From Prevotellaceae bacterium (GTDB lineage Bacteria > Bacteroidota > Bacteroidia > Bacteroidales > Paludibacteraceae): 64,000 nucleotides of DNA. Positions within the stretch are counted from its first letter, which is position 1; each line of letters opens with the position of its first letter. The position numbers and the translations under genes were made by a program. This document shows, in pieces, positions 56,788-63,157 of the stretch. The stretch spans positions 1-64,000 of the forward strand of contig JAISVR010000011.1 of assembly GCA_031271465.1 (NCBI GenBank). Reading direction: 5' to 3'. The notes beneath the pieces are model-generated. The model searched no databases, was not told where the DNA came from, and saw nothing but the letters and a program-made list of their open reading frames with translations.

Positions 56788-57930
56788 TTAGCGAACTTTT
56801 TCTATTACATTGCGCAGTTGTGTACTGCTTGTACCCTGCGTATATGGAAAATATACGATTTCAACATCTTTATCTTTGAAATATTCTTCATACCGAAGAA
56901 AACGGGGTGTATTTTTATAATCGCTGCCAACAAAAAGATAGTTGTAAGGAATTTCGGCGTAGGCGTCCATATCTTCTTCGTACGATTGAATAACCTTGTC
57001 TACATATTTGATGTTTTTGACAATTTCAAAGCGTTCGTCAAACGAAATAAAAGTTTCTTTCCCCTTATGCAGCGCATTTCGGTGAATGCCAACTACGAGA
57101 TAATCGCAATAATCCTTGGCTCGCCTCAGCAAATTAAGATGCCCAATATGAAACAAATCGAAAGTGCCGCTTAAATAGCCGATTTTAATTTGAGGTGTTG
57201 TATTTTTCCTTCCCGAGTTATTTTTATAATCAAAACTTTGCAGCCCGAATAAGTGCGGGTTTTCATTATAATGTTGTAATACTTGCTTGTAAGTTTCTTC
57301 AAACCGGGGAATAAACAAATCCCGCTTCCGAAACATGTTGTCAAGAATATCGTTTGCCAATTGGCTTGTTTGCGATAAATCGTTTTCGCCACCATTAAAT
57401 TTGGTACCGCTAATGGAACCCGGAGCAACATTTAAAATCCTGTTAGAAAAGCCTTGTTTTTCCAGCTCAATGTTTATGCTTTCAATAAAACTGCAAACCG
57501 CAGCCTTTGTTGCACCGTATAATGCAAACATGGGAGAAGAAACCAATCCGGTAATACTCCCCATCACTGCGCAGTAGAAATCGGTCGCAGACAAACATTT
57601 GGCGTAAAAGAATTTGATAATTCGGCAAACAGCAATGGCATTTACCTTGTAGCTGTTAGTAATTTCAATATCCAATATATTGTCAAATGTATCAACTCGC
57701 CCAAAGCCGGCTGTAATTATAAGCGTGTCGATATCTACAAACTGTTCCAACACAGTATAGTCGTCATTCAACAAGTTAAACCTGACGAAAACAACTCGAT
57801 TGCCAAAATCTACCGACGGTTCAAACCTGTCGAGTATATATATTTTCCGATAGCCTCTTTCTATTAATTGTTGAGCAATGGATAAACCTATTCCATTGCT
57901 TCCTCCTACAACTAAAGCTATTTTATTCAT
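56788..57930 (-). CDS. Fused SDR reductase and TagD-like cytidylyltransferase
   Basis: A 380-aa two-domain protein; start at ATG 57930 ([15 protein letters not shown]), since the longer frame crosses the metG promoter. Residues 1-235 form an NAD(P)-binding short-chain dehydrogenase with VGGSNGIG (8-15), Ser125, Tyr138 and Lys142 (YGATK). Residues 246-380 are a nucleotidyltransferase of the TagD/CTP type with [15 protein letters not shown] (254-268) and TSSTQLR (367-373). It may reduce a sugar phosphate and load the resulting polyol phosphate onto CMP. Followed by the TagB/TagF-like gene. Confidence 0.85.
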
Positions 57931-57975
57931 AACGATATGGAACTTTAAATTTCGAACGAAATTAATTATAGCGCA

Positions 57976-57983
57976 CAAATATA
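57976..57983 (-). promoter_or_regulatory. -7 box TATATTTG for glycan cluster 2
   Basis: Minus-strand TATATTTG lies 46 bp before the ATG at 57930. Seven closely spaced minus-strand genes follow. Confidence 0.5.
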
Positions 57984-58056
57984 CTACTTTTCGAAGCATA
58001 ATCCCAAAGACAGGATTTTTTCTGTTTTTGAGAATTAGAACATTAAAATTTACCAC

Positions 58057-58064
58057 TATCTTTG
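58057..58064 (+). promoter_or_regulatory. -7 box TATCTTTG for metG
   Basis: TATCTTTG lies 26 bp before the metG ATG at 58091, back to back with the cluster 2 promoter. Confidence 0.55.
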
Positions 58065-58090
58065 CGCTTCCAAAAAATTTCAAACAAATT

Positions 58091-60133
58091 ATGACTAAAA
58101 ATTTCAAACGAACCACAGTAACTTCCGCTCTTCCGTATGCCAATGGTCCTGTACACATCGGACATTTGGCTGGGGTATATATTCCTGCCGATATTTATGT
58201 GCGCTATCTCCGTTTAAAAGGTGAAGATGTACTTTTTGTCGGTGGTTCGGACGAACATGGTGTTCCTATCACCATTAAAGCCCGAAATGAAGGAATTACG
58301 CCCCAAGATGTGGTAAACAGATACCATACCATGATAAAGAAATCGTTTGAAGAATTCGGTATTTCGTTCGATATATATTCCCGTACAAGTTCGGAAACGC
58401 ATAAAAAAACGGCTTCCGACTTTTTTAAAACGCTTTATGATAAGAAAGAGTTTATTGAGCAGACTTCGGAACAATATTACGACGAAGAAGCCAAACAGTT
58501 TCTTGCCGACCGCTATATTATCGGTACCTGCCCGCATTGTGGAAATGAACGGGCTTACGGCGACCAGTGTGAGGCTTGTGGTACTTCGCTCAGCCCGTTG
58601 GATTTGATTAACCCGAAATCGACCATCAGTGGCAGTACGCCTGTTTTAAAAGAAACCAAACATTGGTACTTGCCTTTAGATAAGCATGAAAACTGGTTGC
58701 GCAAATGGATTCTCGAAGACCACAAGGAATGGAAACCCAATGTGTACGGACAGTGTAAAAGCTGGCTCGACATGGGCTTGCAACCGCGCGCCGTAACTCG
58801 CGATTTGGACTGGGGTGTACCTGTGCCTGTCGAAGGAGCTGAAGGCAAAGTACTGTATGTGTGGTTCGATGCGCCTATCGGATATATTTCCAATACCATA
58901 GAACTACTTCCCGACAGTTGGGAAAAGTGGTGGAAAGACCCTGAGACACGCCTTTTACATTTTATCGGGAAAGATAACATTGTGTTCCATTGCATTGTAT
59001 TTCCTGCCATGTTGAAAGCCGAAGGCAGTTTTATTTTGCCCGATAATGTACCTGCCAACGAGTTTTTAAATCTCGAAGGCGATAAAATTTCCACTTCACG
59101 CAATTGGGCGGTTTGGCTACACGAGTATTTGGTGGATTTTCCCGAAAAACAAGATATTCTGCGCTATGTGCTTACTGCCAATGCTCCCGAAACAAAGGAT
59201 AATGATTTTACTTGGAAAGATTTTCAGGCAAGAAATAACAACGAATTGGTAGCGATTTTCGGGAACTTTGTTAATCGTGCACTGGTGCTTACGCATAAAT
59301 ATTTTGACGGCAAAGTGCCTGCTCGCGGAGAAATGACCGACTATGAGAAAGAAATTGTATCTCAAATTTCAAATTCAAAATTTCAAATTCAAAATTTACT
59401 GGATAATTTCCGCTTCCGCGATGCACAAAAGGAGGCAATGAATTTGGCGCGTATCGGAAACAAGTATTTGGCAGATACCGAGCCTTGGAAATTGGCTAAG
59501 AATGATATGGCTCGCGTGGCTACGATTATGAATATCAGTTTGCAGATTACCGCCAATTTGTCCATCGCTTTTGAACCGTTTTTACCGTTTTCATCGGCTC
59601 GATTGAGAGAAATGTTGCATTTGCCTGCATTTAATTGGGCAGATTTAGGCAGCATCCAATTTTTGCCGGAAGGACACCGGCTTGGCGAAGCAAAATTATT
59701 ATTCGAAAAAATAGAAGATGAGGCTATCGAAGCGCAAGTATTGAAATTGCAAAAAACAAAAGAAGAAAATGCTGTAACTTCCGTAACTTCTGTAACCCCT
59801 GTAAAAGAAAACATTGCTTTTGATGATTTCACTAAATTGGATATTCGAGTGGGAACTGTGCTCGATTGCCAAAAAGTACCCAAAGCCGATAAATTATTAC
59901 AATTTAAAATTGACGATGGATTGGGCGGACGCACTATCGTTTCGGGTATTGCACAGTATTATGCACCTGAGGATTTAATAGGGAAGCAAGTATGTTTCAT
60001 TGCCAATCTTGCTCCACGCAAACTAAAAGGAATTGATTCTGAAGGAATGATACTCTCTGCCGAAGATGCTGACGGGAAATTGGTGGTAATAAGTCCAAGC
60101 GGAACTGTAAAGCCGGGTTCGGAAGTAGGATAA
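58091..60133 (+). CDS. metG: Methionyl-tRNA synthetase with C-terminal tRNA-binding domain
   Basis: MetRS charges tRNA-Met. The start at ATG 58091 ([16 protein letters not shown]) gives 680 aa. HIGH is in [11 protein letters not shown], the zinc knuckle is [18 protein letters not shown], and the KMSKS site reads [12 protein letters not shown]. The C-terminal 110 residues ([20 protein letters not shown]) form a dimerising EMAPII-type tRNA-binding domain. The DNA at 59367-59394 holds a perfect 14-bp tandem repeat within the coding frame. Confidence 0.97.
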
Positions 60134-60137
60134 CCGT

Positions 60138-60944
60138 CTACTCAACTAAAGAAGTATTGTACAGCGAGTCAAAAACCCGTATACCATCAACTAACGGTTT
60201 CACATCGTGAGTACGGATATAATCCGCACCTTTTTTATACGCAAAAAGTTCGGCAACGAGAGTTGCAGCAAGACGGTCGGTAACATCGGAAGCTGTCATT
60301 TTTCCCAAAAACGATTTGCGCGAAACGCCTATCATCACCGGTAAATCGAAACGCTGTTTTATTTCATCAAACCGCCTTAATGCTATCATGGAACTTTCGG
60401 GGTTCGAACCGAGAAAAAAACCCATGCCCGGGTCGAGAATAAGTCGCTCGCGGGCAATGCCTGCATCGGTAAGCGCGGTAATGCGCTCGTCAAAAAAACT
60501 CATCATGGAGTGAAAAACCTCTTCAGGTTCGGTTTCTACCACAGTAGCCATACCGATGCGCTGTACAGAATGCATCACCACCAGTTTACACGAGGCGCGA
60601 GCAAGCTCGGGATATAGCTCGGAGAAAGGAAAACCTTGAATATCATTGATAAAATCCACCCGTTGTTCCATACAAAACCGCTGTACCTCAGGTTTAAAAG
60701 TGTCTACCGAAACAGCAATATCCTGCGCTTTCAAGGCAGCAATCACAGGTCGCAGACGGGAAATTTCTTCTTCCGCAGAGATAGTTGCCGAATTAGGGTT
60801 GCTCGATGCAGCACCGAGGTCAATCACATCGGCTCCGCCTACAGCAAGCTCGAAAGCATGCGCAATGGCACGGTTGATATCAAGATACAATCCGCCGTCG
60901 GAAAAACTGTCTTCCGTAATATTTACTATTCCGAAAATACTCAT
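60138..60944 (-). CDS. folP: Dihydropteroate synthase, Sul-like subtype
   Basis: DHPS joins pABA and dihydropterin pyrophosphate in folate synthesis. The 268-aa TIM-barrel protein starts FGIVNITEDSFSDGG and has NDIQGF (100-105), MHSVQRIG (124-131), DPGMGFFLG (171-179), VSRKSFLG (207-214) and DYIRTH (241-246). These forms, especially NDIQGFP, MHSxQR and DPGMGFFL, match the mobile Sul enzymes as remembered and differ from the usual FolP motifs (NDVSGG, MHMRG, DPGFGFGK). It is a single gene on the minus strand, with metG convergent on its 3' side and its own promoter, and no integron or mobile signs nearby. Confidence 0.9.
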   Translation of the reverse strand: MSIFGIVNITEDSFSDGGLYLDINRAIAHAFELAVGGADVIDLGAASSNPNSATISAEEEISRLRPVIAALKAQDIAVSVDTFKPEVQRFCMEQRVDFINDIQGFPFSELYPELARASCKLVVMHSVQRIGMATVVETEPEEVFHSMMSFFDERITALTDAGIARERLILDPGMGFFLGSNPESSMIALRRFDEIKQRFDLPVMIGVSRKSFLGKMTASDVTDRLAATLVAELFAYKKGADYIRTHDVKPLVDGIRVFDSLYNTSLVE

Positions 60945-60990: not shown

Positions 60991-60998
60991 CAAAGATA
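60991..60998 (-). promoter_or_regulatory. -7 box TATCTTTG for the dihydropteroate synthase gene
   Basis: TATCTTTG on the minus strand, 46 bp before the ATG at 60944. A TTTG lies 17 bp upstream of it, close to a -33 box. Confidence 0.55.
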
Positions 60999-61063
60999 AA
61001 ACAATCTGCACAAAACAAAGCAAGAAAAACTCTGCAAGTTGGGCGAGCATAGTTCTTTTCCAT

Positions 61064-63157
61064 TCAACTTATCACGCTCCAATTCATCGAGTTTTTATTT
61101 TTTTTATTGAGCTGTTGCACGAGAATCGCATTCTCGGGTTTTTCCAATTTAGGATCTCGGTCGAGAATTTCTAACGCAACTTGGCGGGCAAACGATAACA
61201 GATGACTGTCCGTAGACAAATTGGCAATTTTCAGTTCGAAAGGCATGCCGCTTTGCATAGTGCCGTCCATGTCGCCCGGTCCACGCATTTGCAAGTCGGC
61301 TTCGGCAATCTCAAAACCATCGTTGCTGCGAGTCATTATTTCCAATCGCTTGCGGGTATCAGTCGTAATTTTGTACGACGACAGCAGGATACAAAACGAT
61401 TGCTCAGCCCCGCGCCCTACGCGTCCGCGCAATTGGTGCAGTTGCGACAATCCGAATCGTTCTGCGCTTTCAATCACCATTACCGAAGCGTTGGGCACAT
61501 TTACGCCTACTTCGATTACCGTTGTAGCAACCATTATCTGTGTTTCCCCCGATGCAAATTTTCTCATTTCATCGTCCTTTTCCTTCGCTTTCATTCGTCC
61601 GTGCACCATGCTGATATGATATTGCGGCAAATGGTTTTTAAAAAATTCATAGCCTGCTTCAAGATTTTGCAAATCCATTTTTTCGCTCTCTTGAATAAGC
61701 GGATAAACCACATACACCTGCCGTCCCGCGTCAATTTGTTTTTTCAAAAAATCGAGCATTGCAATCCGTTTACTGTCGTAATAATGATAAGTTTGAATAG
61801 GCTTTCGTCCGGGTGGAAGTTCGTCGATAACCGACACCTCGAGGTCGCCATACACGGTCATTGCCAGCGTGCGGGGAATAGGCGTGGCAGTCATCACCAA
61901 AATGTGTGGCGGCTGCAAGTTTTTATTCCATAACCGTGCGCGTTGTGCCACGCCGAAACGATGCTGTTCGTCGATAATTACCAATCCAAGATTGGCAAAT
62001 TGCACCGAATCTTCGATAAGAGCATGCGTCCCTATCAAAATTTTCAATTCCCCCGAGCGAAGTTGTTCATGCAGTTGTTCGCGCGCTTTTTTTGTGGTCG
62101 AGCCGGTAAGCAAAGCTATATTTATACCCATTCCATCGAGCATGTTAGCTATTGTTTCGAAATGCTGTGTAGCCAAAATTTCAGTCGGAGCCATTATGCA
62201 AGCTTGAAATCCGTTGTCAAGAGCCATAAGCATCGACATAAGCGCGACAAGCGTTTTTCCACTGCCAACATCGCCTTGCAACAAACGGTTCATTTGCCGT
62301 CCCGAGCCGACATGTTGACGAATTTCGCGTAACACCCGTTTTTGCGCTCCCGTCAGTTCAAAAGGCAAATTCTTTTCGTAAAAAGTATTAAACAAAGTCC
62401 CGATTTTATCGAACAAAAAACCCTGATACTTCAACTCCCGAAATTTCGACTGTCGTAAAATATCAAGTTGAATGTAAAACAATTCCTCAAGTTTCAAACG
62501 ATGTTGTGCGCGATGCAACACTTCCGCTTGTTGTGGAAAATGCACTGCAACTACCGCTTCGTGGCGCGACATCAGGTTGTATTGTTCGATGAGGTAAGAA
62601 GGAAGCGTTTCGGGCAATTTCATCGGAAGATTTTGCAGAGCGGTATGCATAATTTTCCGAATGGCGGCAGAGTTAAGAAAATGCTTTTTCATCTTCTCGC
62701 TCGTGTTGTAATGTGCCTGCCAACCAAGAGCCTGTCGCTGATTTTCCTCAGTAGCAAATTCAATTTCGGGATGAGCAATACTGAATCGTCCGTTAAAAAC
62801 AGAAGGTTTGCCAAAAACAATATATTGCGCCTGCGGTTTCAGTTTGTCCTCCGCATAGCGAATCCCCTTAAACCAAACAAGGTCAATTACTCCGGTTTCA
62901 TCGAAAAAAACGGCATTTAACCGTTGGTTTTTCCCCGTACCCGATTTTTGCACATTGCGTATCCGTCCCCGCAACTGAATATAAGGCAAATTCTCGGCGA
63001 TTTCGCTCGCAAAATAAAAACGGCTTCGGTCAATATATTTATAAGGATAGTACGAAAATAAATCCTCCACCGAGTTGATATTCAGCTCAGTGCGCAATAA
63101 TTCGGCGCGTTTTGGTCCCACGCCGGGCAGGTACATAATGTCGGTCAATAAATCCAA
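61064..63157 (-). CDS. recG: ATP-dependent DNA helicase RecG
   Basis: RecG remodels stalled forks and Holliday junctions. The 697-aa protein has an N-terminal wedge domain with LPGVGPKRAELL (10-21), Walker A GDVGSGKT (295-302), DEQH box (396-399), GRMKAKEKDDEM and QLRGRVGRG. The start is taken as the TTG at 63157 (LLTDIMYLPG); an ATG at 63136 is the alternative, and an in-frame stop lies just upstream of the TTG. Confidence 0.96.
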   Translation of the reverse strand: MDLLTDIMYLPGVGPKRAELLRTELNINSVEDLFSYYPYKYIDRSRFYFASEIAENLPYIQLRGRIRNVQKSGTGKNQRLNAVFFDETGVIDLVWFKGIRYAEDKLKPQAQYIVFGKPSVFNGRFSIAHPEIEFATEENQRQALGWQAHYNTSEKMKKHFLNSAAIRKIMHTALQNLPMKLPETLPSYLIEQYNLMSRHEAVVAVHFPQQAEVLHRAQHRLKLEELFYIQLDILRQSKFRELKYQGFLFDKIGTLFNTFYEKNLPFELTGAQKRVLREIRQHVGSGRQMNRLLQGDVGSGKTLVALMSMLMALDNGFQACIMAPTEILATQHFETIANMLDGMGINIALLTGSTTKKAREQLHEQLRSGELKILIGTHALIEDSVQFANLGLVIIDEQHRFGVAQRARLWNKNLQPPHILVMTATPIPRTLAMTVYGDLEVSVIDELPPGRKPIQTYHYYDSKRIAMLDFLKKQIDAGRQVYVVYPLIQESEKMDLQNLEAGYEFFKNHLPQYHISMVHGRMKAKEKDDEMRKFASGETQIMVATTVIEVGVNVPNASVMVIESAERFGLSQLHQLRGRVGRGAEQSFCILLSSYKITTDTRKRLEIMTRSNDGFEIAEADLQMRGPGDMDGTMQSGMPFELKIANLSTDSHLLSFARQVALEILDRDPKLEKPENAILVQQLNKKNKNSMNWSVIS

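Follow-up and report, generated by a model that had tools for sequence, protein, structure and literature searches.

A Sul-type dihydropteroate synthase that has displaced the vertical folP in a Paludibacteraceae genome, and its apparent kinship with the mobile resistance gene sul3

The 64,000-nucleotide stretch analysed here, hereafter the window, carries a gene (folP*, 60138..60944, minus strand; ATG start) for a 268-aa dihydropteroate synthase (DHPS), identified as Sul type from its open reading frame and profile scores. We are confident that it represents a working Sul-type DHPS which arrived by horizontal transfer, displaced the vertical folP and shares a small clade with the mobile sul3, its catalysis, its insensitivity to sulfonamides and a phase of coexistence with the ordinary gene being predicted from sequence. 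In folate synthesis the enzyme would join pABA to dihydropterin pyrophosphate. Its alpha-6 region, extended and bearing an extra phenylalanine (F176) and leucine (L178), is predicted to exclude N-substituted sulfonamides and admit pABA. The gene would have reached Paludibacteraceae by horizontal transfer and probably have been kept alongside ordinary folP for a time, until loss of the vertical folP next to cdaA left it as the sole DHPS. The kind (FolP*/Sul) is already known; a member in Bacteroidota, its displacement of folP and its place next to sul3 are new in that none of them was found in the open-access literature. According to Venkatesan et al. 2023 (PMC10328974), hundreds of the DHPS sequences on deposit contain the Gly-Phe-Phe motif, so further chromosomal members are no surprise in themselves.

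All five motifs named in the sequence-only reading (NDIQGFP, MHSVQRIG, DPGMGFFLG, VSRKSFLG and DYIRTH) are present in the protein. It passed the DHPS model TIGR01496 (266.6 bits, cut-off 162.6) and scored 417.7 bits against the NCBIfam Sul3 model NF000296, under the strict cut-off of 475, and was thus assigned to Sul-type DHPS and not to Sul3 as named. Against solved structures, phmmer gave 394.6 bits for Sul3, 288.7 for Sul2, 237.4 for Sul1 and about 160 or less for ordinary DHPS. Identities from tblastn against plasmids followed the same order with ~69% (68.7%) to Sul3, 54.5% to Sul2 and 45.4% to Sul1, and identity to ordinary Bacteroidales FolP was about 25-37%. Judged by these scores the window gene is of the Sul type. 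The sequence-only reading had proposed this subtype on the likeness of the motifs to Sul1-type enzymes; the subtype was called correctly, as the insertion, the profile scores and the tree branch with Sul1-3 all agree, but the nearest mobile partner is Sul3 (69%) instead of Sul1 (45%).

In the protein tree a 100/100 branch set Sul1-3 and the window protein apart from ordinary FolP, and grouping of the window protein with ordinary Bacteroidales FolP was rejected (AU p ~1e-9, 1.1e-9), the groups in this and the later AU tests having been chosen after the trees had been seen, with p-values serving as a guide. The phylogeny that had been put forward as a check therefore placed the protein outside ordinary Bacteroidales FolP, relative to which the gene is foreign by its position in the tree. 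That an ordinary Bacteroidota FolP gained the motif by convergence could be imagined, as E. coli folP can acquire a Phe-Gly insertion under laboratory conditions (PMC10328974). This reading was refuted by the tree tests: the 69% identity to Sul3 extends over the whole protein and the placement holds without the motif columns, and its probability is negligible.

The core of the Sul motif, M174-G175-F176-F177-L178-G179, was located by alignment at 60408..60425 (minus strand) and includes a two-residue insertion in the alpha-6 region. The insertion, for which an alignment check had been advised, was present in the window protein and in 0/34 ordinary DHPS compared. F176 aligns to Phe177 of Sul3 and L178 to Leu179, and all catalytic, pterin and pABA residues checked are kept (N8, D81, N100, D171, K210, R244 and H246). 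The AlphaFold model of the protein (pLDDT 89.6) had its best PDB match in 8scd, which is Sul3 complexed with a reaction intermediate (TM-score 0.95, rmsd 0.9). Deletion of the phenylalanine from Sul2 or Sul3, or its replacement by glycine in Sul1-3, abolishes resistance but leaves growth intact (Venkatesan et al. 2023, PMC10328974), and the leucine (Leu179 in Sul3) contributes to resistance as well (PMC10328974). Homologues from Leptospiraceae and Rhodobiaceae that bear the Sul motif have also been reported to confer resistance (PMC6335563). As both the Phe and the Leu that matter in Sul3 are found, sulfonamide insensitivity of the window enzyme is a well-founded prediction, on firmer ground than when it was first proposed. 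The Sul-type DHPS of the sister genus g16 (L004, L142, L143, L144, L146) and of Sporomusa (L045, L066) have Asn or His at the position of the resistance Phe and may be sulfonamide sensitive; the g16 sequences indicate that the clade does not keep the key Phe everywhere.

The cdaA site was compared among relatives. In G001 and G002, which share genus g1 with the window genome, and in G004, G031 and G025 of the family, an ordinary folP is next to cdaA, with a SUMF-type lipoprotein gene after it, and the block is followed by asnS and korA in most relatives. In the window genome (G000), G003 and G018 this block lacks folP, and the gaps measure 222, 321 and 248 bp, respectively. A second, canonical folP was looked for across the window genome (2.32 Mb, 99.78% complete, 0.66% contaminated) and was not found; folP* is its only DHPS, in agreement with the single chromosomal copy first described, and folK is there too. 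The cdaA gene lies on contig C12 and folP* on contig C35. With the cdaA site devoid of folP and folP* elsewhere, it follows that the Sul-type gene came in at another site and the vertical folP was lost, and the Sul-type enzyme has thus displaced the vertical folP in this genome. Two DHPS genes each, one of them of the Sul type, were found in genomes of Propionispora (L044/L149) and Treponema (L046/L147); these make a coexistence phase of both genes plausible and are possible intermediates of displacement. The assembly consists of 46 contigs and the gene has a scattered distribution in the family, as might be expected if the contig were a contaminant or misbinned and the organism kept an ordinary folP. 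However, the contig measures 73 kb and its metG contributes to the concatenated genes by which the genome falls with genus g1, the type is also present in a second species of the genus and in five genomes of the sister genus, and a 99.8% complete genome with a closed cdaA site holds no other DHPS, all of which make this explanation very improbable.

The position of the Sul-type gene differs among its carriers. In G003 it is flanked by gene F9 and metG, two genes that directly adjoin each other in G001 and G002 (the empty site); the latter two genomes have no folP beside metG and no Sul-type copy. In the window genome folP* is on the opposite side of metG from the copy of G003 and is convergent with metG, and in g16 the gene sits beside a DEAD-box helicase gene. 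With respect to the F6-F9 gene cluster, it is close in G003 and G762, 24 kb off in G018 and on another contig in the window genome. As the window gene and that of G003 share neither a side of metG nor a relative orientation, there may have been more than one acquisition.

In the window, metG (58091..60133, plus strand; TIGR00398, 554.8 bits) ends 4 bp from the folP* stop, and a recG-like helicase gene (61064..63157, minus strand; an ORF assigned to recG by reading its sequence) lies upstream. No IS, integron or resistance gene was seen among the neighbours from metG to recG, which bears out the chromosomal context beside metG that had been described, and no attC-like cassette flank was seen by eye at the gene, the two stops being 4 bp apart. 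The codon use of folP* is the 8th poorest of 49 genes (GC3 0.43), inside the spread of the genome and no outlier, so recent insertion was rejected and the acquisition is not recent. Elsewhere in the window, an ORF at 56788-58158 reads as a fusion of a short-chain dehydrogenase and a glycerol-3-phosphate cytidylyltransferase-like domain, and its adjoining genes look like glycosyltransferases, both as read from sequence.

Within Paludibacteraceae, 8/358 genomes gave a match at E <= 1e-55, namely the window genome, G003, five g16 genomes and G575. The Sul type proper is present in seven of the 358, the eighth match being the known sul2; G575 was therefore rejected as a further chromosomal acquisition. 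Its contig (L200, a Paludibacteraceae MAG) carries sul2 in the vicinity of tet(Q), together with a glmM-like fragment, and the genome has kept the ordinary folP at the cdaA site. In a phylum sample (n=396) the Sul type was found only in the window genome and three others, and those three hold the group A cassette described below. A scan of bacterial and archaeal genomes with Sul-specific peptide patterns returned 486 stretches encoding relatives, the best 80 of which came mostly from Alphaproteobacteria and also from Bacteroidota, Negativicutes, Spirochaetes, Actinomycetes and others. The motif set is accordingly not universal in Bacteroidota FolP (7/358 in the family, 4/396 in the phylum sample), and in this phylum the Sul type is a rare, patchy, minority and horizontally distributed enzyme. 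The sequence-only reading had suggested an ancestral or sister lineage of the mobile sul genes within Bacteroidota. Ancestry is wrong for the phylum, where a minority, horizontally spread gene has displaced the vertical folP; sisterhood is upheld for sul3, next to which and L042 the gene falls in the tree, and fails for Sul1.

The tree resolved these genes as (g16,(G003,(window,(Sul3,L042)))) with supports of 95/86, 95/82, 98/95 and 99/93. When the motif columns were left out the topology was unchanged at 85-100 bootstrap, with lower values at the outer two forks (85/88 and 87/84), and the window protein stayed with Sul3 and L042 at 98-99/95 in both analyses. A species tree built on metG, cdaA, asnS and the lipoprotein gene was (g16,(G000,(G003,(G001,G002)))), with inner forks at 97/98, 81/82 and 100/100. 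Identity to Sul3 reached 80% in L042, 71% in G003, 68% in the window protein and 57% in the best Leptospirales sequence. By these measures the window enzyme is among the closest chromosomal relatives of sul3 found; as no single-copy chromosomal gene found exceeds 71%, the direct donor is unsampled. The origin of sul3 has been published as Leptospiraceae (Sanchez-Osuna 2019, PMC6335563) in a text that names no motif-bearing Bacteroidota sequence, and no earlier report of a Bacteroidota origin was found in the open-access literature. Our trees and AU tests conflict with the published origin: the grouping of Sul3 with Leptospirales was rejected in every form tried (AU p 0.0003-0.02).

Two directions of transfer may account for this placement. 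The Sul-type folP of the present Paludibacteraceae lineage, rather than a Leptospiraceae gene, may have been the source from which sul3 was mobilised together with a Bacteroidota promoter, a reading to which we would give a little less than an even chance. It is favoured by the nesting of Sul3 among the Sul-type genes of Paludibacteraceae, whether or not the motif columns are included, by the rejection of Sul3 with Leptospirales (p 0.0003 to 0.018), by the identities given above and by an upstream block, TGCAAAGATAGGG...TAnnTTTG, that sul3 and L042 have in common. Set against it, Leptospirales alone as a group was not rejected (p 0.22), nor was monophyly of the Paludibacteraceae genes without Sul3 (p 0.09), the chromosomal single-copy genes found reach <= 71% to Sul3, and the promoter box by itself is weak. 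The TAnnTTTG sequence is the Bacteroidota -7 element. A promoter-like TTTG-N17-TATCTTTG of the Bacteroidota type was located upstream of folP* by pattern scan (60991..61019, minus strand). The distance from TAnnTTTG to the start is 26 bp in sul3, 27 bp in L042 and 54 bp in the window gene (which has TTTG also at -75); in G003 it lies 34 bp ahead of the first conserved codon used. The element was found upstream of 8/24 window genes against 1.3 expected, with a weaker enrichment in E. coli (3/29 genes against 1.4 expected). That sul3 keeps a Bacteroidota-like promoter box is a suggestive prediction only, since the box of sul3 gave P of about 0.06 by shuffling. A Paludibacteraceae chromosome, in the lineage of the DHPS displacement, as the source of both sul3 and the second sul3-like gene on viral contigs, Bacteroidota promoter included, is likewise held tentatively, close to evenly balanced.

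Alternatively, Paludibacteraceae may repeatedly have taken genes from a mobile sul3-like pool whose chromosomal source lies elsewhere, unsampled; this is a serious possibility that we lean against. The differing positions (metG/recG in the window, F9/metG in G003, the DEAD-box helicase in g16), the lack of a copy in the congeneric G001 and G002 and the mobility of close relatives all agree with it, whereas the fit of the window gene to the codon use of its genome argues for an acquisition that is not recent, and the gene-tree order, g16 then g1, agrees with the species tree. With monophyly of the Paludibacteraceae genes without Sul3 at p 0.09, the donor and the recipient readings both stand.

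Of the mobile relatives, the L042 gene (L042:1688-2827) on a rumen MAG contig is 100% identical over 1140 bp to L202:4903-6042 and to L203, two IMG/VR contigs of 55% GC, and is evidently a mobile sul3 relative on virus-like contigs. Further mobile genes of the type were observed. Group A is a 1303-bp unit with a Sul-type DHPS 59% identical to Sul3 (L047:4812-6114, L049, L050, L051 (=L036), L053, L060 (=L035), L105 and L037), the DNA of which is about 99-100% identical across Flavobacteriales, Chitinophagales, Chlorobi and Ignavibacteria records and thus between phyla. Its sharp ends, GTTGGGC...CCGTTA, and unrelated flanks resemble those of an integron gene cassette; in L047 it lies near tet(X) and erm(F), and it was absent from the plasmid collection searched. 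Group B, a second cassette-like Sul-type gene (L055, L056, L057; 100% identical gene DNA in 3/3), was seen, with catB, in Lewinella, Phaeodactylibacter and a Bacteroidia MAG; tet(X) is present in L055 and L057, and ere(D) in L057.

The displacement of folP means that an essential enzyme has, in nature, given way to its predicted resistant form, and it raises the question of why a Sul-type DHPS persists with no known selection by a sulfonamide drug. Loss of the key Phe in genus g16 provides a natural experiment on what that residue costs or confers. As sul3 is common as a resistance gene in clinics and on farms, and a Bacteroidota family is now placed beside it, the tree points sampling at gut and rumen anaerobes.

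Among known systems, the window enzyme is most like the mobile Sul3 (NF000296; PDB 7s2l, 7s2m, 8scd) in identity (69%), motif, key Phe and Leu and modelled fold (TM-score 0.95). It differs in scoring under the Sul3 family cut-off and in being chromosomal, single and the sole DHPS, while sul3 resides on plasmids or phage-plasmids with IS elements and other resistance genes. The sul3-like unit of L042 shares 67% identity with the window protein and 80% with Sul3, but is a 33% GC gene in 46-55% GC surroundings, present in addition to another DHPS of its genome. The ordinary Bacteroidales FolP has the reaction and catalytic residues in common with the window protein, yet it is only about 25-37% identical, is without the insertion and is encoded at the cdaA site that is vacant in the window genome. 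The FolP* of Leptospiraceae and Rhodobiaceae (PMC6335563) are likewise chromosomal DHPS bearing the Sul motif, but belong to another phylum and clade, the Leptospirales sequences found here being <= 57% identical to Sul3; the relatives of Sul2 lie in Alphaproteobacteria, in contrast to the Bacteroidota of the window gene.
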